Source of the DNA: Sphingosinithalassobacter sp. CS137
GTDB taxonomy: Bacteria > Pseudomonadota > Alphaproteobacteria > Sphingomonadales > Sphingomonadaceae
DNA length: 64,000 nt
NCBI RefSeq assembly: GCF_014334115.1
Contig: NZ_CP060494.1
Location: 2,944,501 to 3,008,500 of the forward strand
Direction: 5' to 3'
Below the pieces are notes generated by a model. It searched no databases and was not told where the DNA came from. It saw nothing but the letters and a program-made list of their open reading frames with translations. Shown here in pieces: positions 43,151-55,264 of this stretch (within the stretch, counting starts at the first letter, position 1; every line of letters begins with the position of its first letter). The translations under genes and the position numbers were made by a program.

Positions 43151-43224
43151 TGGAGCGGGTGAAGGGAATCGAACCCTCGTCGTAAGCTTGGGAAGCTTCT
43201 GCTCTACCATTGAGCTACACCCGC
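43151..43224 (-). tRNA. tRNA-Gly (anticodon CCC)
   Basis: Minus-strand cloverleaf with acceptor GCGGGTG/CACCCGC, D-stem GCTC/GAGC, anticodon loop TTCCCAA (U33 then CCC), T-arm GAGGG-TTCGATT-CCCTT and an encoded CCA after a T discriminator. The anticodon stem has one mismatch at its top (G27-A43). Anticodon CCC reads GGG codons. Confidence 0.95.
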
Positions 43225-43273: not shown

Positions 43274-45070
43274 TCAGGAGCTGCCGCGTTCCTGGGCCGG
43301 GCCGCCCGCGCGGTCGAGGCTGAGCGCGGCGGCGACCAGCGAAAGGTGCGAAAGCGCCTGGGGGAAGTTGCCGAGCAAGCCTTCCTCGCCGACTTCCTCG
43401 GCCAGCAGGCCGACGTCGTTGGCGGTGGCGCACAGGCGCTCGAACAGCCGCCGCGCGTCTTCGAGCCGGTTCTGCAGCACATAGGCGTCGACCAGCCAGA
43501 AACTGGCGGCCAGGAAAGCGCCTTCGCCGCCGCCGACGCCATCCTCGATCCGGTCGGGCGCGTAGCGCCGGACGAAGCCGTCGCGATCGAGCGCGCTTTC
43601 GATCGCCGCGACCGTACCGCAGACGCGCGGATCGTCCGCCGGGAGAAAGCCCACGAGCGGGATCCGCAGCGTCGCTGCGTCGAGCGCGGTTTCGCCATAG
43701 GCGGCGACGAAGCTGTTGCGCTCGGAATCGAAGCCGTGCTCGAGCACCTGTGCCTTCACGCGCTCGGCCAGTTCGCGATAGTGCGAACACAGCTCGGGGT
43801 CGCTTTCCTCGAACCAGCAGGCGGCGCGATCGAACGCGGTCCAGCACATCACCTTGGAATAGACGAAATGGCGCGGTTCGCCGCGGCTTTCCCAGATGCC
43901 GGCATCGGGCTTCTGCCATTCGCTCTCGAGATCGGCGGCGAGCAGGCGGACGAGCGCGTCGCTGTCTTCGGTCCGTTCCATGCCGTGGCGCACGGCGGAA
44001 TGCAGCGTGTCGATCACTTCGCCATAGATGTCGAGCTGGCACTGGTCGGCGGCGGCGTTGCCGAAGCGCACCGGCGTGGCGCCGTTGAAGCCGGCGAGCC
44101 AGGGCGCCTGCCACTCGAGCATCCGCCGGTCGCCGCCCACCGTGTAGAAAGGCTGGACGTCGATCGGCTCGCCCGCGACGGCGCGCCGCAGCCAGCCGAC
44201 CCAGGCGTGCGCTTCGGCCGACATGCCCGATTGGAGGAACGAGAGGAGCAGGAAGGTCGAATCGCGCAGCCAGCAGAAGCGATAATCCCAGTTGCGCGAG
44301 CCGCCCGGACATTCGGGCAGCGAGGATGTGGGCGCGGCGACGATCCCGCCGGTGGGCCGGTGGATCAGCGCCTTCAGCGTGACGAGCGAGCGGATGACTT
44401 CGCCTCGATACGGGCCGTCATATTTGCACCGCGCGACCCAATCTTCCCAGAAGCCGCGCGTATTCTCGAACGCCTTCTCGGGGTGAACCGATTCGGGAAC
44501 CGCCTCGTGCGCGGGAAACCAGGTCATCACGAAGCCGCGCCGATCGCCTTCGTTCACGGTGAACCGGCTGGTGAACCAGCGATCCTCGAAAGTGATCGGT
44601 TCATCGAAATCGAGAACGATCGCGTCGGGGCCGGCGATCGCCAGGACCTGCGCCTCGGAACAGGTGCGCACCAGCGGGTGGAGCTGGCCGTAATCGAAGC
44701 GCGCGGCGAGTTCGGAGCAGACCTCCACGCTGCCGCGGCGGCCCTCGACGATGCGCACGATATCCGGCGCCTGGCCGCGGATCGGCATGAAATCAATGAC
44801 GGCGATGCAGCCGTCCCGGGTCTCGAACTCGGTTTCGAGGATCAGCGTCTCGTCGAGGTAGCGGCGGCTGCTGCGGGTGACTTCGCCCACCGGGCGCATG
44901 CGCCAGCAGCCGTTCTCGGCGTCGCCGAGGATCGCCGCGAAACAGGCCTCCGAGTCGAAGCGCGGCATGCACAGCCATTCGATCGAGCCGTCGCGATGGA
45001 CCAGCGCGGCGGTCTCGCCGTCGCCGATCAGGGCATACTCCTCGATCCGCTTGCGGGATGGCTCGCTCAT
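43274..45070 (-). CDS. Glycoside hydrolase family 15 protein (glucoamylase/trehalase-like)
   Basis: A 598-residue cytoplasmic enzyme with the GH15 plan: an N-terminal beta-sandwich ([32 protein letters not shown]) and an (alpha/alpha)6 barrel starting near [20 protein letters not shown], the GH15 hallmark. Bacterial members of this length act as trehalases or glucoamylase-like enzymes on alpha-glucans; the substrate is not readable. No signal peptide is present. It is the last gene of a six-gene cluster, and its start overlaps the SDR stop as ATGA. A trehalose or glycogen link would fit stress physiology. Confidence 0.92.
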
Positions 45071-46080
45071 CCTTCGGCGCGGCTCCGCGCGAACAGCCCG
45101 GCTGCCAGCCCAGCGCCGATCGCGGCGAGCGCGCCCAGCGCTACTGTTCCGCGATGGGTGGTGAGCCAGAGCTGCGAACTGCGCGTCCGGGCACTCGCGT
45201 CGAACCGGCCGTGCGCGCCATGATCGCCGGGAACGGGCGCATAGAGGTTGTTCCGCCGGTCCGGCGCGACGGGTTCATCACTCTGCTGCCCGCTGACGCC
45301 CGTGCGCGCGAGATAGCGGTCCAGCAGCGGGGAAGCGATCTGGTCGCCCAGGATGGCCTGCCAGGTGGGCCAACCGAGCTTGATGTTCTTGCGCTTGTGA
45401 TGCGCGGCGAAGTGGATCGCGCGGGCGGCGATTTCCGGCTGGTACGGCGGGCTCGCCGGCCGGGGTTTCATCGGCAGGTTCGTCTTGATCCAGTCGAACT
45501 GCGGCGTGTTGACGCCCGGCAGTTGCACCATCGAGACCGAGACGTTGCTGCGATCGTGGATCAGCTCGGTTCGGATCGAATCGTGAAAGCCCTGGATCGC
45601 GTGCTTTGCGCCGCAATAGGCCGATTGCAGCGGGATGCCGCGATAGGCGAGCGCCGAGCCGACGAGCACTACCGAGCCCCGGTCGCGCGGCACCATCCGC
45701 TTCAGCGCGGCATAGGTGCCGTTTACTTGCCCGAGATAGGTGACTCGCGTGACGCGCTCGTAATCGGTGAGCGACATGTCGAGGAAGCGCGCGAGCACGC
45801 CGGCGAAGGCGGCGTTGATCCAGATGTCGATCGGGCCGAACCGCTCCTCGAGCTTCGCGGCAGCGTTCTCGACGGCGTCGGCATCGACGACGTCGAGCGG
45901 CAGGACCAGCGCCTCGCCGCCGGCCTCTTCCACTTCGCGCGCTGCGGCTTCGAGCCCGTCGCGCCCGCGGGCGATAAGGCCGATGCGCGCCTTGTCCTTC
46001 GCGAATTCGCGCACGACCGCGCGCCCGACGCCGGCCGAGGCGCCGGTGATCATCACGACGGGGGGATGGCTGCTGCGCAT
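45067..46080 (-). CDS. SDR-family oxidoreductase with C-terminal membrane anchor
   Basis: A 337-residue short-chain dehydrogenase. The cofactor motif is [15 protein letters not shown], the active site [21 protein letters not shown] (Ser, Tyr, Lys), with NAAFAGV in place of the usual NNAG. After the catalytic domain a long linker leads to a C-terminal hydrophobic segment ([19 protein letters not shown]), so the enzyme is probably tail-anchored. Fifth gene of the cluster; its stop overlaps the GH15 start. The frame is open far upstream, but the start at 46080 gives the correct SDR N terminus. Confidence 0.92.
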
Positions 46081-46106
46081 GGTGCCTCCGCTTGTTGCTT
46101 GCCCTG

Positions 46107-47753
46107 TCAAAGCGCACCGCGACGCGAGAGTTCCTTGATGCGATCGGCAGTGCGGCACGCGAGCGCCTGAATGGTCAGCGACGGATTGGCGCCGCCCACG
46201 GTGGGAAAGACCGATCCGTCGCAGATCCAGAGGTTGGGAACGTCCCAGCTGCGGCAATCGGCATCGACGACGCTGGTTTCGGGGTCGAAGCCCATCCGCG
46301 CGGTGCCGTTCAGATGGCAGGTATCGTCGGTCTCGCGCCAGCGCTCGCGCGCGCCGGTCGCTTCGAGGCTTGCCTCCATGAAATCGAGCGCATGCGCGAC
46401 CATGCGGCGCTCGTTGTCGCCTATCGCGAAGGTGACCCGCGGGATCGGCAGCCCATATTGATCGGTCTCGTCGGCCAGGGTGACGCGATTGTGCGCATAG
46501 GGAAGCACTTCGCCGACCATCTTGAGCCCGACCGAATGGTTGCTGCGCGCCATCTCGTCGATCAGCGCCCGACCCCATAGGCCGCGTCCGCCCGAAAGCG
46601 ACCGCGCCCAGCTGATCGGCAGCGGACCCTGGCTCATATAGGCCCAGCCGCCGTGATAGTCCTTGCCGGCGTCCGCATAGTTCCAATGCTCGTTGATCGC
46701 GAGGCTGGGCGGCCCTTTGTACGAGCGGATCTCCTCGTCGACCTGGCCCCAAACCGCCTGGTTGAGCTGGACCATAAGATTGCGGCCGACGAGCCCCGAC
46801 CGGTTGGCGAGGCCGTCGGGAAAGCGGCTGCACGCCGAATTGAGCAGCAGCCGCGGCGTTTCGATCGCATAGCCGGCGACGACGACGTTCTTCGCCCGCT
46901 GGAACCGCCATTCGCCTTCGCGGTGATAGTGAACGCCCGTGGCGCGGCCGTTCGGCCCCATCTCGATCCGGCCGACCATCGCCAGGTCGCGGATTTCGGC
47001 ACCGGCAGCCAGTGCGCGCGGCAGCCAGGTGACGAGCACCGATTGCTTGGCGTTGGTCGAGCAGCCGATCACGCACATGCCGCGATAGACGCAGGGGTGC
47101 GCCTTGCCGTGCGGCGCGGAAAGCGTGGCGATCGGCGTCTCCGCCCAATCGGTGCCGAGCGCCTCGGCGCCGCGCGCCAGATGCTCGGCGGCGGCATTGA
47201 GCGGATGCGCGCGATAGGGATAGCGCGGCCGCTTGGGCCCCCAGGGATAACGGACCGGGCCGGCGATCTTCAGCGCCTCCTCGACCTCGGCGTAATAGCG
47301 CCACATCTCGCGCCAATCGATCGGCCAGTCGACGCCATAGCCCAGTTTCGTCCGGCTCTTGAACCATTCGGGACGGAAGCGCAGCGACACCATCGCAAAA
47401 TGAACGGTCGATCCGCCGACGGATTTTCCCGAATTGTTCGAGCCGAGCTTGAGCGGATCTGGGCCGTCGACGATGCGGTCGTCGGTCCAGTAGAGCTTTG
47501 CCTGATGCCGCTCGTCGGAAGCGAAATCCTCGAGCGGGCGCCAATAGGCCCCGGCATCGAAGGCAACGACCGAAAAGCCGGCTTCGGCGAGCTTGCAGGC
47601 AAGCGTGCCGCCGCCCGCGCCAGTGCCGACGATCGCGAAGTCGACTTCATCCTGCTCGCGATGCTCGCGCATCGGCACCCAGCCGCCCGGTTCGAAGACG
47701 TCGGGCGCACGGCCGTTGGCGGCGCGGGGCGTGGTCAGCGCGTCAGCGCGCAT
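46107..47753 (-). CDS. GMC-family flavin oxidoreductase
   Basis: A 548-residue FAD enzyme of the glucose-methanol-choline family. The dinucleotide motif is [20 protein letters not shown]; the active-site histidine lies in [13 protein letters not shown] and the C-terminal signature in [17 protein letters not shown]. Sequence resembles the large subunit of gluconate 2-dehydrogenase-type complexes. There is no Tat or Sec signal. The start at 47753 overlaps the subunit-3-like gene by 11 bases, as expected for a coupled complex. The natural substrate, possibly a sugar acid or sugar alcohol, is unknown. Confidence 0.92.
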
Positions 47754-48387
47754 GCCGGTTCCGAAAGGGGGCAGGGAGGAGGCGCCCATCGTCGCGCTCG
47801 GCGGCTTCCCAGGGATCGCGGCGATCGGCGGCGAGGCGGACATAGCCGCGCGGGCTGGCGGGACCGCCGAAGCCCATCGCGCTCCAGGCCGAGGGGTGGG
47901 CAAAATAGGCCGCGACGAGATCCGGCAGCAGCCGCCACGACCAGAAGAGACGGGGCGGGAGCTGCTGCCATTCGCAAGCGCGCACCGTGCCGTTCTCGAT
48001 TGCGGCGAGCAGCGTGTCGGCCGCCTCGGGGGGCAGCGCCGCGAAGCCCCGCCCGTGGACCAGCCTGGCCTCCGCCTCGATCGCGTCGAGCCCGCGCGCC
48101 CAGGCCTCGCGCGCGGGCGGCAGTCCGGCCGGGCGATAGCCTTCGCCGGCGGTTGCGTCCGTCAGCGATGCGAGCAGCAGCGCGACCGTGTTGACCGGCG
48201 CCCGCTGTTCGGGCTGCGGCACGATGCGCTCGGCAAGTGCGCGCAGCGTCGCGATCTGGACGGCGGTGAGCAGGCCGGTGGCTTCGCCGAGCCGAAGCCG
48301 CGCGTCGATCACTTCGCGCGTGGCCGCGTTCCAGCTCGGCGTGTCGCGCTGGGTGAGCACGTCATAGTCGGGGAAGCGATCAGCCAT
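47743..48387 (-). CDS. Gluconate 2-dehydrogenase subunit 3-like protein
   Basis: A 214-residue protein of the gluconate 2-dehydrogenase subunit 3 family, the small partner of a GMC flavoprotein. The family pattern LLTAVQIATLRALAERIVPQ near residues 38-57 is clear. Many homologues carry a Tat signal that exports the complex; this one begins MADRFPDYDVLTQRDTPSWN with no signal, suggesting a cytoplasmic complex. It overlaps the membrane-protein gene upstream by eight bases and the GMC gene downstream by 11. Confidence 0.87.
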   Translation of the reverse strand: MADRFPDYDVLTQRDTPSWNAATREVIDARLRLGEATGLLTAVQIATLRALAERIVPQPEQRAPVNTVALLLASLTDATAGEGYRPAGLPPAREAWARGLDAIEAEARLVHGRGFAALPPEAADTLLAAIENGTVRACEWQQLPPRLFWSWRLLPDLVAAYFAHPSAWSAMGFGGPASPRGYVRLAADRRDPWEAAERDDGRLLPAPFRNRHAR

Positions 48388-49231
48388 GCCCCCTCCGCAT
48401 CAGGAGCAGCGCGCCGAGCCCGGCGAGCGCCAGGCCGGTGAAGGCGGGCGGGGCGGGGATCGGCGGGCCGACGAGCAGATTCTGGCGCCAGTTGCGCCAG
48501 CCGCCCATGTTGCGCGCGACACCGCGCGCGTGGAAGCCCGCGCCGACAAAGCCGAGCAGCGCAGTTGCACCGAGCAGTGCCCAACTCGTGTCCTTCGGCA
48601 CTCCGGAAAGCGTGTCCCGCGCGAGGGCGAGTGCCGCCAGCGGCGGCAGCGTGACGGGCAGCCACATCCAGGGGCTGTGGAAGGCGCCGCGGAAATGCAG
48701 CAGCGCCGCTTCCGCCGAGGTGCCGACAAGTCCGATCACGGCGAGCGCGCCGACGAAACGGCCGCCGACGGGCAGCGGCCCCAGGCGCGGATCGCGCGTG
48801 GCGAGCGCATCCGCCGCCGCGCCGAGCGCACCGGACAGGATCAGCGCGGCCGGAGCGCCGATCGGAGCGGCATAGAAAAGCGTGCTCCAGCGCAGATGCC
48901 CGACGCGGCGAGCGATGTCCCATCCATGGAAGCCCAGGCCTGCCGCTCCGGCGGCGGCGATCGCTGCGTGGGCGGGCGTGCGCGGCCGACGCTCAGGCCG
49001 CTGTGCCGGATCGCGGAGCGGCTCATTGGGAACGGATGATCGGTCTCGACCGCCGGCCGCGTTCACGCGGATCGCTGCCACTGCGGCTACGATGGGCACC
49101 GCCATCGCCGGGTGGTGAAACGATCCTCGGTAATGCTCGATCGAACTGTCGGCGAGCACCGAAGCCCCTAGGATCGTCGCGCCACCGGCGATCAGCCGGG
49201 CGGGCGCCGTGGCTGCGTCCGCCTGCAGCAT
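48380..49231 (-). CDS. Uncharacterised membrane protein with internal two-fold repeat and paired His motifs
   Basis: A 283-residue polytopic membrane protein with about seven hydrophobic segments. I recognise no family. The two halves are related: H33-Y-R-G-S-F-H39-x-P matches H179-F-R-G-A-F-H185-x-P, and GLGFHGWDIARRVGHLRW (H102) matches GAGFHARGVARNMGGWRNW (H234). Conserved membrane-embedded histidines in a duplicated fold could bind haem or metal. It is coupled to the subunit-3-like gene (8-base overlap) and follows the TPP enzyme by six bases, so it is probably the membrane anchor or quinone-side partner of the GMC complex; that is inference. Confidence 0.8.
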   Translation of the reverse strand: MLQADAATAPARLIAGGATILGASVLADSSIEHYRGSFHHPAMAVPIVAAVAAIRVNAAGGRDRSSVPNEPLRDPAQRPERRPRTPAHAAIAAAGAAGLGFHGWDIARRVGHLRWSTLFYAAPIGAPAALILSGALGAAADALATRDPRLGPLPVGGRFVGALAVIGLVGTSAEAALLHFRGAFHSPWMWLPVTLPPLAALALARDTLSGVPKDTSWALLGATALLGFVGAGFHARGVARNMGGWRNWRQNLLVGPPIPAPPAFTGLALAGLGALLLMRRGHG

Positions 49232-49237
49232 CGCCGA

Positions 49238-51022
49238 TCAGTCCTTCGCGAAGACGTTGGCGAGAACCTGCTTGGCGCTGCCCTTCAGCACCGACCCCTG
49301 ATTGGGATCGCCCTTGAAGAACATGCTGGTGAAGGCCTTGGCCTGCTCCAGCGTGATGTGCGGCGGAAGAGGCGGGACCTCGGGGTCGGTCTTGACCTCG
49401 ACCACCACCGGCCGATCGGAGGCGAGCGCCTGGTCCCAGGCGTCGCCGAGCTCGGCGGGATCGTCGACATAGATTCCGCGCAGTCCGATCAGCTCGGCGA
49501 AGCGGTGATAGGGCACATCGGGAATGGTCTGCGTGGCTTCGAACTTCGGATTTCCCTCCATGACGCGCTGTTCCCACGTCACCTGATTGAGATCCTCGTT
49601 ATTGAGGACAAGCACGATGAAGCGCGGATCGGCCCATTTGTGCCAGTATTTCGATACGGTGATCAGCTCCGCCATGTTGTTCATCTGCATCGCGCCATCA
49701 CCGACGCTCGCGATCACCGGGCGCGTGGGATGGGCAAACTTGGCCGCGATCGCATAGGGAACGCCCGCGCCCATCGAGGCGAGCCCGCCCGAAAGCGACC
49801 CGCGCATCCCGCGCCGCATCATCAGGTCGCGCGCATACCAGTTGGCGCAGCTTCCGCTGTCGCTGGTGAGAATCACGTCATCGGGAAGCCGCGTGTTGAG
49901 TTCTGTGAAGACGCGCTGCGGATTGACCGGATTGGCATCCACCATCGCGCGGTCGTGAAGAGTCTTGCGCCAGTCCTCGTTCCACTCGGCGATGTCCTCC
50001 CGCCAGCTTCGGTCGGTCTTTTCCTCGAGCAGCGGCAGCAGCGCCTCGAGCGTGGAGCGCACATCGCCGGTGAGATTGACTTCCATCGGATAGCGGATCG
50101 AGAGCATGCCGGGATCGATATCCACCTGCACGCCGCGCGCCTGACCCTCCTTGGGGAGGAATTCGGAATAGGGGAAACCCGAACCGAGCATCAGCAGCGT
50201 GTCGCATTCCATCATCAGATTCCAGCTCGGCTTGGTGCCGAGGAGTCCGATCGAGCCGGTGACCCAGGGCAGGTCGTCGGGAAGGACATCCTTGCCGAGC
50301 AGCGCCTTCGCCGAGCCCGCGCCGAGCTTGTCGGCCACGGCGATCACTGCATCGGCGGCGTTGCCGGCACCGGCGCCGACCAGCATCGCGACTTTCTCGC
50401 CCGAATTGAGCACGTCGGCGGCGCGCTGAAGGTCCGTCGGTTCGGGAACGACGCGCGGGGCCGACCAGCCGACTCCCGAGAAGACCGCGCCATGGCTGCG
50501 CGGCGGCTGTTCCATCTCGAGTTCCTGAAGATCGTTCGGAAAGACGAGCGCAGTCACCCGGCGCTGGCCGAGCGCGATCCGCACCGCCCGGTCGATCAGG
50601 TGGCGGACCTGCGCCGGCGCCATCGCATAGCCGGTGAAGGCGCCCGCTACGTCCTTGAACATCGACGTCATGTCGAGTTCCTGCTGATAATGCGCGCCGA
50701 CCGCGGTGCGCGCCTGCTGACCGACGATCGCGAGCACCGGCATGTGATCCATCCGCGCGTCATAGAGGCCGGTCAGCAGATGCGAGGCGCCGGGCCCGGA
50801 AGTCGCGAGGCACACGCCCAGCTCGCCGGTGAACTTGGCATGGGCGGAGGCCATGAAGGCGGCCATCTCCTCGTGCCGCGCCTGGACGAAATCGAATTTG
50901 TCGCCGGCGCGGTCGAGCCCGCCGAGCAGTCCGTTGATGCCATCGCCGGGATAGCCGAAAATGCGCCGCACGCCCCATTCGTGCAGGCGTTCCCACACGT
51001 AATCGCCGACCGTCTGCGCCAT
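49238..51022 (-). CDS. Thiamine-pyrophosphate-dependent enzyme (pyruvate oxidase / acetolactate synthase-like)
   Basis: A 594-residue protein of the TPP decarboxylase superfamily. The PYR domain carries the catalytic glutamate in FDFVQARHEEMAAFMASA; the central domain resembles pyruvate oxidases; the PP domain has SVGDGAMQMNNMAELIT and VLVLNNEDLNQVTWE, the Mg/TPP motif. It resembles PoxB more than IlvB, which suggests pyruvate decarboxylation to acetate or acetyl phosphate, unproven. It is the first gene of a six-gene cluster, with a perfect EcfG promoter 50 bases upstream and an RBS of CGAGGAGG. Confidence 0.9.
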   Translation of the reverse strand: MAQTVGDYVWERLHEWGVRRIFGYPGDGINGLLGGLDRAGDKFDFVQARHEEMAAFMASAHAKFTGELGVCLATSGPGASHLLTGLYDARMDHMPVLAIVGQQARTAVGAHYQQELDMTSMFKDVAGAFTGYAMAPAQVRHLIDRAVRIALGQRRVTALVFPNDLQELEMEQPPRSHGAVFSGVGWSAPRVVPEPTDLQRAADVLNSGEKVAMLVGAGAGNAADAVIAVADKLGAGSAKALLGKDVLPDDLPWVTGSIGLLGTKPSWNLMMECDTLLMLGSGFPYSEFLPKEGQARGVQVDIDPGMLSIRYPMEVNLTGDVRSTLEALLPLLEEKTDRSWREDIAEWNEDWRKTLHDRAMVDANPVNPQRVFTELNTRLPDDVILTSDSGSCANWYARDLMMRRGMRGSLSGGLASMGAGVPYAIAAKFAHPTRPVIASVGDGAMQMNNMAELITVSKYWHKWADPRFIVLVLNNEDLNQVTWEQRVMEGNPKFEATQTIPDVPYHRFAELIGLRGIYVDDPAELGDAWDQALASDRPVVVEVKTDPEVPPLPPHITLEQAKAFTSMFFKGDPNQGSVLKGSAKQVLANVFAKD

Positions 51023-51071
51023 GATGCGCCTCCTCGAAAGATTGCTCCGGTTTCCGTGCTGTCTGTTTGGT

Positions 51072-51096
51072 AACGGGTTGCGCGCGTGCGCGTTCC
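51072..51096 (-). promoter_or_regulatory. Perfect EcfG-type general stress promoter of the TPP-GMC-GH15 operon
   Basis: Minus-strand GGAAC (51096-51092), 16-base spacer, CGTT (51075-51072): an exact consensus match, with the -10 ending 50 bases upstream of the TPP enzyme ATG at 51022. It predicts that the whole operon down to 43274 belongs to the general stress regulon. Confidence 0.8.
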
Positions 51097-51127
51097 GCTT
51101 CCCGGTTGGTATCGATGGAGATCAAGG

Positions 51128-51505
51128 ATGGAGGCGATCGGAAGGACGCGCTGGGTGATCGCGGAAGGCTATCTTCCCGACGGCAGCATGGCCGGGGCGG
51201 ATCACGCGCTGATGAGCCACGAGGCTGCCTGTATCCTCAACAGCGGCGACACGGATGCGCAGGTGACGCTGACCTTGTTCTTCACCGATCGCGAGCCGGC
51301 CGGACCCTATCGTGTGACCGTGCAGGCGCGGCGGACGCTGCACCTGCGGTTCAACGACCTCGATGATCCCGAGCCGGTGCCGGTGGGAAAAAGCTATGCC
51401 AGCGTGATCGAGAGCGATGTGGCCGTAGTGGTGCAGCATACGCGGCTCGACAGCCGCGCCGCCGAGATCGCGCTGATGACGACCATGGCCTATCCCGCCG
51501 GCTGA
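51128..51505 (+). CDS. Sensory rhodopsin transducer (ASRT)-like soluble protein
   Basis: A 125-residue protein closely matching the Anabaena sensory rhodopsin transducer family along its full length: IGRTRWVIAEGYLPDGSM, SHEAACILNSGDTDAQVTLT, DREPAGPYRVTVQARRTLHL, RFNDLDDPEPVPVGKSYAS and VQHTRLDSRAAEIALMTTMA. ASRT is a soluble beta-sandwich tetramer that binds sensory rhodopsin and can also bind DNA or sugars. No rhodopsin gene lies in the window. It is divergent from the stress operon, and its 3' end overlaps the convergent hydroxyacid oxidase by 16 bases. The start at 51128 matches family N termini. Confidence 0.92.
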   Translation: MEAIGRTRWVIAEGYLPDGSMAGADHALMSHEAACILNSGDTDAQVTLTLFFTDREPAGPYRVTVQARRTLHLRFNDLDDPEPVPVGKSYASVIESDVAVVVQHTRLDSRAAEIALMTTMAYPAG

Positions 51506-52746
51506 GCGGCCTCGGACGGGAGCGGCAGCGAGTCGGTCCGCACCAGCATCTCGCGCCCGAGATGCGCCAGCGAGGGCGCGCCGATCTGGCCCAGTTCGTT
51601 CCGCATCTCGTCGCGCAGGATCTCGAGCGCGCGGTGCACGCCGTCGGCGCCGCCTGCGCACAGGCCATAAAGGGGTGCGCGTCCGGCGAGCACCGCGTCG
51701 GCGCCGAGCGCGAGCGCCTTCAGAATGTCCGATCCGCGGCGGATTCCGCCCGACATGTAGAGCGCGATCCGATCGCCGACGATCGCGCGGGCGGGGGCGA
51801 TCACGTCGAGCGCGGAAACCGACGACTCCGCCTGGCGGCCGCCGTGGCTGCCGAGGATCACGCCGTCCACTCCCGCGTCGAGAGCTAGACGGACGTCGTC
51901 GGGATGGAGCAACCCCTTGAGGAGGAACGGTCGCTTCCAGCGGTCGCGGATCTTCGCGACCATATCCCAGGAGAGCGCCTTGGGCATGTGCTCGCGGATC
52001 CAGAAGGCGCTGTCGAAGAAGCCGCGCCGATCCTTCGGCACATGATCGCGCACGTTCACGAAGGCGGGCATGCCGTGGCTGAAGGTGCGCAGCGTCCATT
52101 GCGGGTGGCGCGCCGCGTTGGCCAGCGTGGCAAGCGAGGGCCGCGTCTTGGTCGCGCGGGTGCGGGCATACCATTCGCGGCGGCCGAACAGCTGCGCGTT
52201 GGTGGTGAGCACCAGCGCCTCGCATCCGGCGGCATCGGCGCGGTCGACCAGCGACTGCCAGACCTCCTCGCCGCCGAAGACATAGAGCTGCCACCAGTGG
52301 CGCAGGTTCGGGACGCGCGCGACATCCTCCATGCGATCGTTCGACATGGTGCTCTGGACGAACGGCACGCCCGCCCGTGCGGCGCCTTCGGCAAGCGCCA
52401 GGTCGCCGTGGCGGCGGAAGATGCCGTTGAGGCCGGTAGGCGCCACCGCGAGCGGCATTGCGGCGCGCGTGCCGAGCAGCGTGCCGTGCACATCGCGCTC
52501 GCTCTCGTCGGTCAGCGTGCGCGGCAGGAAGCGCCATTCGGCCAAGGCGTCGCGCTCGCGCTCGAGAGTCGTTTCCTCGCCCGCGCCGGCTTCGAGATAT
52601 TCGAGGACGAAGCGCGGCATCTTGCGATGCGCACGGGCGCGGAGGTCCTCGATCGTGCGGGCGCGGGCGAGATCGGCGCCGGTGTAGAGCCGGCGGCGCG
52701 GCGTGCCGTTCAGCTGCGCGAGATCGTGGCGGTGCGATGCGGCCAT
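51490..52746 (-). CDS. FMN-dependent alpha-hydroxyacid oxidase (lactate oxidase/dehydrogenase family)
   Basis: A 418-residue TIM-barrel flavoprotein. Recognisable motifs are EYLEAGAGEETTLERER, LAVAPTGLNGIFRRHGD, VQSTMSNDRMEDVAR and the active-site GSHGGRQ (usually SNHGGRQ), followed by the FMN phosphate loop SGGIRRGSDILKALALGADA. It oxidises a 2-hydroxyacid such as lactate or a related compound; the S for N change before the catalytic His is noted. It lies 41 bases after hutU on the same strand, so it may be the last gene of the hut operon. The start at 52746 follows the frame's usual N terminus. Confidence 0.9.
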   Translation of the reverse strand: MAASHRHDLAQLNGTPRRRLYTGADLARARTIEDLRARAHRKMPRFVLEYLEAGAGEETTLERERDALAEWRFLPRTLTDESERDVHGTLLGTRAAMPLAVAPTGLNGIFRRHGDLALAEGAARAGVPFVQSTMSNDRMEDVARVPNLRHWWQLYVFGGEEVWQSLVDRADAAGCEALVLTTNAQLFGRREWYARTRATKTRPSLATLANAARHPQWTLRTFSHGMPAFVNVRDHVPKDRRGFFDSAFWIREHMPKALSWDMVAKIRDRWKRPFLLKGLLHPDDVRLALDAGVDGVILGSHGGRQAESSVSALDVIAPARAIVGDRIALYMSGGIRRGSDILKALALGADAVLAGRAPLYGLCAGGADGVHRALEILRDEMRNELGQIGAPSLAHLGREMLVRTDSLPLPSEAAQPAG

Positions 52747-52787
52747 CGACGCGACCAACGCGCGGATGCGCCCTCGCGGTTCCGCGC

Positions 52788-54448
<1,661 letters not shown>

Positions 54449-54452
<4 letters not shown>

Positions 54453-55264
54453 TGCTTTTCCCCGGTGAAGTCGATGCAGGCGGCGAGTACCCGGCGCAGC
54501 ACGTCGCGGCAGGGCTCGGCGCGCGTCGTATCCCATTGCGGCGGCCACTCGGCCGCCGGCACCTCATCGAGATAGGTCCGCATCGCGAGCTCCATCTGGA
54601 TCGCGTGCACCCGTTCGGCGCGCGGCCAGCCATAGTGGCGCGTGATCCAGCCGCCCTTGAACCGCCCGTTCGTCACGCGCGTGAAGTCGCTTGCGTCGCA
54701 GGCCTGTTCGACCGCCTGCGTCAGGCCGGGGGCGCAGGAGCGCCCGTCGTTGGTGCCGATGTTGAAATGCGGCAGCTCGCCCCCGAACAGCTTGGGCGCG
54801 ACACTGCGGATCGAATGGGCGTCATAGAGCACGAGCCGCGGGTGCCCGCCGCGCAGCCGATCGACCTCGGCACGCAACGCGTCATGATAGGGCTGGTACC
54901 AGGCGGCGCGGCGGCGCTCGATCTCGGCTTCATCCGGTTCGCGGCCCGGCAGGTACAAAGGCTCGCCATCGAAGGTGACGGCGGGGCAGAGGCCGGTGGT
55001 GAACTGGCCGGGGTAGAGCGTTTCGCCGTCGGGCATGCGGTTCACGTCGACGACGGTGCGCGAAATCGCGGTGCGGACGATCGTCGCGCCGAACTCCCGC
55101 GCGATTGAATAGAGCCGATCGACATGGAGGTCCGCGTCGCGCCGCGCACGCTCCACCGACACGAGATCGCGCGCGATATCATCCGGAATGTCGATTCCGG
55201 CGTGCGGGATCGACACGATCAGCGGCGCATCGCCGCGCGTGATGTCGAGCCAGTCCGCGCTCAT
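54449..55264 (-). CDS. hutG: N-formylglutamate amidohydrolase (deformylase)
   Basis: A 271-residue zinc enzyme hydrolysing N-formylglutamate to glutamate and formate, the last step of the five-step histidine pathway. Visible features are [20 protein letters not shown] at the N terminus, [20 protein letters not shown] and [11 protein letters not shown]. The gene overlaps both neighbours by four bases (hutH upstream, hutU downstream), so translation is coupled throughout. Confidence 0.94.

Follow-up and report, generated by a model that had tools for sequence, protein, structure and literature searches.

The closest described relatives of the proteins treated here are the direct-electron-transfer (DET) flavin adenine dinucleotide (FAD) dehydrogenases, namely the glucose dehydrogenase of Burkholderia cepacia (BcGDH; structures 6a2u and 8hdd), fructose dehydrogenase (7w2j, presumably from Gluconobacter) and gluconate 2-dehydrogenase. 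In these complexes, a GMC subunit with a catalytic His/Asn pair is encoded just downstream of a small subunit of family PF13618, and a multiheme cytochrome c takes part. In BcGDH, Cys212, Cys218 and Cys222 ligate a 3Fe-4S cluster, which is the acceptor of electrons from FAD; Cys213 forms a disulfide to the small subunit (passages of PMC6719666). Passages of PMC12542777 describe a GMC oxidoreductase of Collimonas pratensis that oxidises glucose to gluconic acid in mineral weathering. It likewise has small and large GMC subunits. Here we compare these systems with a locus of Sphingosinithalassobacter sp. CS137, located in a stretch of 64,000 nucleotides of contig NZ_CP060494.1 (the window). Six genes on its minus strand encode, in order, a thiamine diphosphate (ThDP) enzyme (TPP), an eight-helix membrane protein (MEM), a gluconate 2-dehydrogenase subunit 3-like protein (GADH3), a GMC dehydrogenase, a short-chain dehydrogenase/reductase (SDR) and a GH15 glycoside hydrolase.

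On comparison of sequences, the core of the locus is MEM-GADH3-GMC, which appears to be co-inherited as a unit. We read this core as a sugar-oxidising respiratory complex in a mobile cassette, which would be under the control of EcfG in alphaproteobacteria and would feed a 2-keto acid to TPP. Our confidence in this reading is about evenly divided between its being right and its being wrong. The most interesting part of the locus is MEM, which an earlier first-pass annotation of the DNA had named without assigning it a role.

The dehydrogenase pair and its membrane partner

The solved structures nearest to GMC in sequence were catalytic subunits, those of the Burkholderia glucose dehydrogenase (6a2u, E 4e-55) and of fructose dehydrogenase. 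Its residues C221, C227 and C231 align to the three cluster ligands of BcGDH. These cysteines were invariant in 22 of 22 GMCs, a comparison of residues only, and so was the His/Asn catalytic pair (H480 and N523). The operon also shares with the DET enzymes the PF13618 small subunit gene just upstream of GMC.

The differences concern export and the electron acceptor. Unlike the DET complexes, the window operon has no twin-arginine translocation (Tat) motif, no inter-subunit disulfide cysteine and no multiheme cytochrome c. The Collimonas protein also differs from it: its small subunit carries a Tat signal, and it has a cytochrome subunit (same passages of PMC12542777). The Tat pattern RRx[FL][LKI] was absent from the first 50 residues of all 24 GADH3 small subunits, some of which had starts chosen by script; RR alone occurred within the first 40 residues in 4 of the 24. 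The position of the disulfide cysteine of BcGDH (Cys213) is Val222 in the window GMC. None of the six operon proteins contained CxxCH, and GADH3 had no PDB match by sequence. In place of the cytochrome c, the operon encodes the unrelated MEM with its eight helices and four histidines. As the Tat motif, CxxCH and a Cys213 equivalent are all missing, the simplest reading is that GADH3-GMC would be a cytoplasmic version of the DET complex with an electron acceptor other than cytochrome c.

At least 2590 relatives of MEM were found at E ≤ 0.001 when 8000 candidates were scored, and most of the 120 relatives listed are unnamed or called 'hypothetical protein'. It gave no credible Pfam or PDB match by sequence, and literature searches aimed at it found no description. 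The first-pass annotation had called it a membrane repeat protein, and the repeat is genuine: the two halves align at hhalign E 1e-18. The AlphaFold model comprises eight long and two short helices (mean predicted local distance difference test score 88.6; predicted template modelling score 0.88).

Exactly four histidines were invariant in 72 MEM sequences (H33, H102, H179 and H234), at repeat-equivalent positions in both halves. Two of them lie within the motif GxxGxxFH. In the predicted structure, they are located late in long helices 1, 3, 5 and 7, with an invariant Arg, Glu and Trp beside them. CxxCH was found in none of the 72 sequences. Two histidines per four-helix unit suggest that each unit would have one b heme or one metal. 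Most likely, the His pairs would ligate a total of two b-type hemes or some other redox metal. A conserved metalloprotein of Bacillus cereus (3d19, whose family number we take to be DUF2935) was also considered as a relative and was rejected, as its match to MEM was at the level of the helical-bundle background (Foldseek E 0.73) and showed no sequence relation.

MEM may instead be redox-inactive, that is an anchor, a cofactor-less quinone-binding subunit in a role like that of NrfD, or a substrate channel, with the GMC cluster passing its electrons directly to quinone. The lack of a match to known heme families is in line with this, and the invariant Arg, Glu and Trp near the histidines might make up a binding site for quinone or sugar. 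NrfD-like subunits are described without redox cofactors in passages of PMC8076601. However, four invariant histidines in repeat-equivalent pairs, two of them in GxxGxxFH, read as cofactor ligands. We consider a redox-inactive MEM possible, at somewhat less than an even chance.

Conservation of the core and of the stress promoter

Two sets of loci were compared. The TPP set comprised the best 80 of at least 592 TPP relatives from a scan of public genome contigs. The MEM set comprised 44 loci: the window, 25 from named genomes, 9 from genome searches and 9 from plasmids (L128 duplicates L038). As 25 of the 44 were found via the TPP protein, the presence of TPP in all 44 is biased. In the 18 loci found via MEM, TPP was nearby in all 18 (in L134 only as a 42% relative), and GADH3 and GMC followed MEM in all 18.

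In the TPP set, MEM-GADH3-GMC was complete in 22 loci, absent in 55 and partial in 3 that were cut by contig ends; L046, which stops inside MEM, is counted among the 55. In the order, MEM was found in 9 of 397 genomes, the window genome included, and the same nine alone hold a close GMC (at least 68% identity), in searches limited to a few first-look candidates in each genome. Overlaps were conserved as well. Of 21 loci, 19 have a MEM-GADH3 overlap of either 4 or 8 bases, and in 20 of the 21 GADH3 and GMC overlap or nearly do so. The exception is L041, in which these two genes are on the other strand and the computed gap is not valid. L037, L043 and L044 retain no more of the triad than a C-terminal piece of GMC between TPP and SDR (inverted in L044), which we read as the scar of an en-bloc deletion. 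A second type of GMC, at 43–48% identity and without MEM, occurs in five further genomes of the order (G299, G450, G506, G518 and G585; loci L146–L150). In L146, it is preceded by an open reading frame (ORF) of 202 aa and an SDR-like ORF.

The order TPP-(dehydratase)-MEM-GADH3-GMC recurs in sphingomonads, Rhizobium, Paraburkholderia, Acetobacteraceae and Deinococcus. All six genes stand in the window order in 6 distinct loci including the window, and in 5 more with a dehydratase after TPP (11 distinct loci of 44). The first-pass annotation had proposed a six-gene operon, and the comparison of cluster order across genomes agrees with it in that the core order recurs.

The genes may also form a loose neighbourhood of stress genes sharing a promoter, in which GH15 and SDR are unconnected with the dehydrogenase. 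GH15 was present in 20 and SDR in 22 of the 44 MEM loci, sometimes upstream or inverted (the GH15 of L131 is only 33% identical), and TPP often occurs without the triad. This is countered by the order TPP-dehydratase (where present)-MEM-GADH3-GMC and its overlaps, which are kept across classes into Deinococcota. We regard a loose neighbourhood as rather unlikely.

The cassette is rare (9 of 397 genomes in the order and 2 of 192 in a class sample, the window genome being counted in both), lies on plasmids (24 records match, of which 9 were picked for taxonomic spread and read) and reaches Deinococcus. Hence, it probably moves horizontally. On the plasmid of Deinococcus peraridilitoris (L151), the core cassette and a dehydratase are followed by a beta-glucosidase gene; farther on, GH15 and trehalase-like genes are annotated as two adjacent pieces.

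GGAAC-N16-CGTT is printed as the EcfG consensus in passages of PMC7083833 and PMC3892343, and EcfG is described as exclusive to alphaproteobacteria in PMC3892343. The EcfG (sigma-EcfG/PhyR/NepR) regulons of Sphingomonas melonis Fr1, Sphingopyxis granuli TFA and Rhizobium etli have this promoter in common with the window operon, and the core regulators are encoded in the window genome as in those systems. A NepR gene was identified by hidden Markov model (HMM; 38.6 bits, cut-off 25.7). Beside it are a kinase ORF and PhyR-like and EcfG-like ORFs, which were recognised by eye, with no HMM. Term searches of the main texts of PMC6599016, PMC7083833 and PMC3892343 did not find the operon's enzyme families. 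The Fr1 regulon does include an old-yellow-enzyme oxidoreductase and a cluster for trehalose synthesis.

The number of motif matches did not go beyond chance. GGAAC-N15..17-CGTT had 2 matches in the window against 1.07 expected, and at least 2 matches occurred in 28 of 100 shuffles. Genome-wide, GGAAC-N16/17-CGTT had 34 matches and the reversed control pattern 33. Accordingly, a lone promoter match means little, and the evidence is the conserved position.

This position was analysed in the 300 bases before the TPP start in the TPP set. The class of each locus was taken from the record titles, and two unclassified metagenome-assembled genomes (L062 and L077), neither with the motif, stand outside the class comparison. 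The exact motif was found in 12 of 26 alphaproteobacterial loci, always at -62 to -88, and in 0 of 52 beta- and gammaproteobacterial loci (alpha versus non-alpha Fisher value 2e-7, ignoring phylogeny; L054 and L098 carry one identical promoter sequence). With a relaxed -10 box, 18 of the 26 matched, at -62 to -100. The reversed pattern matched in 1 of the 26 (at -69), and two scrambled patterns in 0 and 1. The MEM-selected genome loci had the exact motif in 4 of 9 (one is a repeat of L038) and the relaxed form in the other 5, at -54 to -114. In the alphaproteobacterial plasmid loci, 2 of 7 had the exact motif, and the remaining 5 lacked even the relaxed form. The exact motif was absent from the 300 bases before MEM (44 loci), the enolase-superfamily dehydratase ENO (32), SDR (28), GH15 (22) and the sensory rhodopsin transducer gene ASRT (12).

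An operon with a stress promoter is well supported by this comparison of sequences. The first-pass annotation had linked the promoter to EcfG, and both the conserved position and the general stress response core genes in the genome argue for this link; EcfG would control the operon under stress.

The ThDP enzyme, neighbouring genes and layout

The best solved relative of TPP was pyruvate dehydrogenase [cytochrome] (3ey9, 316.5 bits), which we take to be PoxB of E. coli. Both have whole-length homology, the ThDP glutamate and three TPP-enzyme domains. The glutamate is E51 or E52, each kept in 80 of 81 alignment rows. Unlike PoxB, TPP belongs to an NCBIfam family of its own (NF006129) and has glutamine for two phenylalanines: F112 corresponds to Q113 in 80 of 81 rows (one gap) and F465 to Q480 in 79 of 81 (two E). 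The PoxB residues were numbered from the printed alignment with 3ey9; we presume that both have an active-site role, of which no printed confirmation was found. TPP was below the curated cut-offs of the pyruvate oxidase models (461 versus 742 and 387 versus 792 bits). Judged by these residues, Q113 and Q480 would fit a polar substrate better than pyruvate.

In the first-pass annotation, a glucoamylase/trehalase and a GMC oxidoreductase were thought to feed a PoxB-type pyruvate oxidase, giving acetate and quinol under stress; despite the relationship to 3ey9 and the kept ThDP glutamate, this is improbable, as both phenylalanines are replaced almost invariantly, TPP scores 1083 bits on its own family and too little on the pyruvate oxidase models, and the ten neighbour families that were annotated include none that handles acetate (the remaining neighbours are without annotation). 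The alternative electron route that it also proposed is still plausible in view of the 3Fe-4S ligand cysteines and the membrane partner; its acetate end is unlikely, and the neighbours (ENO, FMN and SMP-30 genes) point to sugar acids.

In Pseudomonas loci including L064, TPP is found without the dehydrogenase. A DUF72 gene is present in 14 such loci, directly after the TPP gene in L064 (the position was read there only). Given these 14 triad-less loci, TPP appears from its gene neighbourhood to have a second context besides the dehydrogenase cassette.

2-Keto acids are the substrate class of many ThDP decarboxylases. The 44 MEM loci contained ENO in 27 cases, a flavin mononucleotide (FMN) hydroxyacid dehydrogenase in 14, neither in 3 and both in none. 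Without the duplicate L128, the FMN gene occurs in 13 loci, and its identity is at least 58% in 11 of them. The Fisher value for the exclusion was 1.5e-8 (L128 omitted), ignoring phylogeny. The exclusion partly mirrors clades, though both forms occur within a single order: a Methylocystis plasmid has the FMN form, and Rhizobium, Nitrobacter and Bradyrhizobium have the dehydratase form. The closest relative of ENO was 3cyj, whose deposited name is mandelate racemase-like protein; its relation to talarate/galactarate dehydratase was more distant. That the two genes never occur together suggests that their enzymes may be alternative suppliers of a 2-keto acid from an aldonate. Moreover, a cytochrome oxidase subunit I gene was found in 13 and an SMP-30 lactonase gene in some of the 44 loci, and these neighbours are hints that bear on a sugar-respiration reading. 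ASRT was present in 10 of the 44.

A GGAAC-N18-CGTT element at 52757-52783 (minus strand) precedes the projected start of the FMN gene by 103 bases. Exact N17 forms of the motif stand at -109 to -127 before the FMN gene in 4 distinct loci of 15. Owing to these forms, the FMN gene may share the stress control.

The coordinates of the features are given in Table 1. The six co-directional genes, their intergenic gaps (6, -8, -11, 26 and -4 bases) and the exact promoter element were re-found as first annotated, and the enzyme families named at that time agree with the family matches listed. For GH15, the glucoamylase/trehalase-like family assignment holds and a TreH1 trehalase does not, as the score on that model (NF041084) was 374.7 bits, under the curated cut-off of 820. 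No Tat motif was found in the window GH15.

Table 1. Features of the operon and its surroundings (window positions)
Feature	Position	Strand	Family or remark
TPP, ThDP enzyme, PRK08273 family, PoxB-like	49238-51022	-	NF006129, 1083 bits, cut-off 724
MEM, 8-helix membrane protein, tandem duplication, H33/H102/H179/H234	48380-49231	-	no named family
GADH3, gluconate 2-dehydrogenase subunit 3-like small subunit	47743-48387	-	PF13618, 61.2 bits, cut-off 23.4
GMC dehydrogenase, C221/C227/C231, H480/N523 pair	46107-47753	-	PF00732/PF05199
SDR, PRK07109 family, hydrophobic C-terminal tail in sequence	45067-46080	-	NF005495
GH15 glycoside hydrolase with TREH_N domain	43274-45070	-	PF00723 + PF19291
EcfG-type promoter element GGAAC-N16-CGTT	51072-51096	-	49 bases before TPP ATG
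ASRT-family gene (Anabaena sensory rhodopsin transducer), divergent from operon	51125-51505	+	PF07100; recurrent neighbour
FMN-dependent alpha-hydroxyacid dehydrogenase-like gene, start uncertain	51490-52680	-	recurrent neighbour

The only tRNA found in the window, a tRNA-Gly (ccc) at 43151-43224 (minus strand), lies 49 bases downstream of GH15 and is a possible insertion point for the cassette. A urocanate hydratase gene (52788-54548, minus strand) adjoins the FMN gene and looks like a histidine-utilisation neighbour unrelated to the operon.

Interpretation and significance

In the sugar-oxidising respiratory complex that we favour, GADH3 and GMC would together be a sugar (aldose) dehydrogenase of the cytoplasm with FAD and a 3Fe-4S cluster, and MEM would be its docking partner. 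MEM would replace the triheme cytochrome c of the glucose, fructose and gluconate dehydrogenases, with two b-type hemes or another redox metal held by its His pairs, and the electrons would go to the quinone pool. GH15 would split an intracellular alpha-glucoside, and the glucose released would be oxidised by the complex towards the aldonate. The FMN hydroxyacid dehydrogenase in this genome, or ENO elsewhere, would then give the 2-keto acid that TPP would decarboxylate.

A bolder form of this proposal is held only tentatively and may well be wrong. MEM would be the founder of a new family of membrane electron carriers, each a duplication with two cofactors, which take the place of cytochrome c in 3Fe-4S GMC sugar dehydrogenases facing the cytoplasm. 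The cassette would be a mobile, respiratory, non-phosphorylative sugar route, stress-wired in alphaproteobacteria, in which a dehydratase or FMN dehydrogenase provides the 2-keto acid for a divergent ThDP decarboxylase.

Several points weigh against the favoured complex and its regulation. All four histidines of MEM would be on one membrane face, if every long helix of the model spans the membrane. Which face this is, the charge bias leaves undecided: only 5 of 72 sequences had more K/R on the His side, yet the net charges were similar. If the histidines faced the periplasm, the cytoplasmic cluster would be too far away for direct electron transfer. MEM has neither a sequence relation nor a clear fold relation to cytochrome b; no cytochrome b fold was matched by Foldseek at E ≤ 0.001 or was among the 50 VIA matches listed. 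In L041, GADH3-GMC is on the opposite strand, away from MEM. The exact promoter is missing in 14 of 26 alphaproteobacterial loci; it is also missing in 5 of the 9 genome loci selected by MEM and in 5 of the 7 on alphaproteobacterial plasmids. Finally, we infer EcfG dependence, complex formation and the cofactor from sequence.

The same holds for the supply of the 2-keto acid. The exclusion of ENO and FMN largely follows clades, and two of the FMN genes are only 34–39% identical. By its layout, the FMN gene is not in the operon transcript, with the divergent ASRT in between. The SMP-30 lactonase gene is nearby in only 3 of 44 loci. In the TPP set, the triad is missing from 55 of the 80 loci; of these genomes, 29 were searched, and 28 had no MEM anywhere. 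The substrate of TPP therefore need not come from this complex.

MEM together with its fixed 3Fe-4S-type GMC partner is a known kind of dehydrogenase with an undescribed membrane subunit. Cytochrome-c relatives of the dehydrogenase serve in glucose sensors (passages of PMC9727119), and a cytochrome-free relative may be of practical interest. If the favoured reading is true, the locus encodes a respiratory sugar dehydrogenase whose membrane subunit comes from a large unnamed family. Two predictions follow from it, namely a cofactor in MEM and a sugar-derived 2-keto acid as the substrate of the ThDP enzyme. It would also point to a metabolic role of part of the general stress response.

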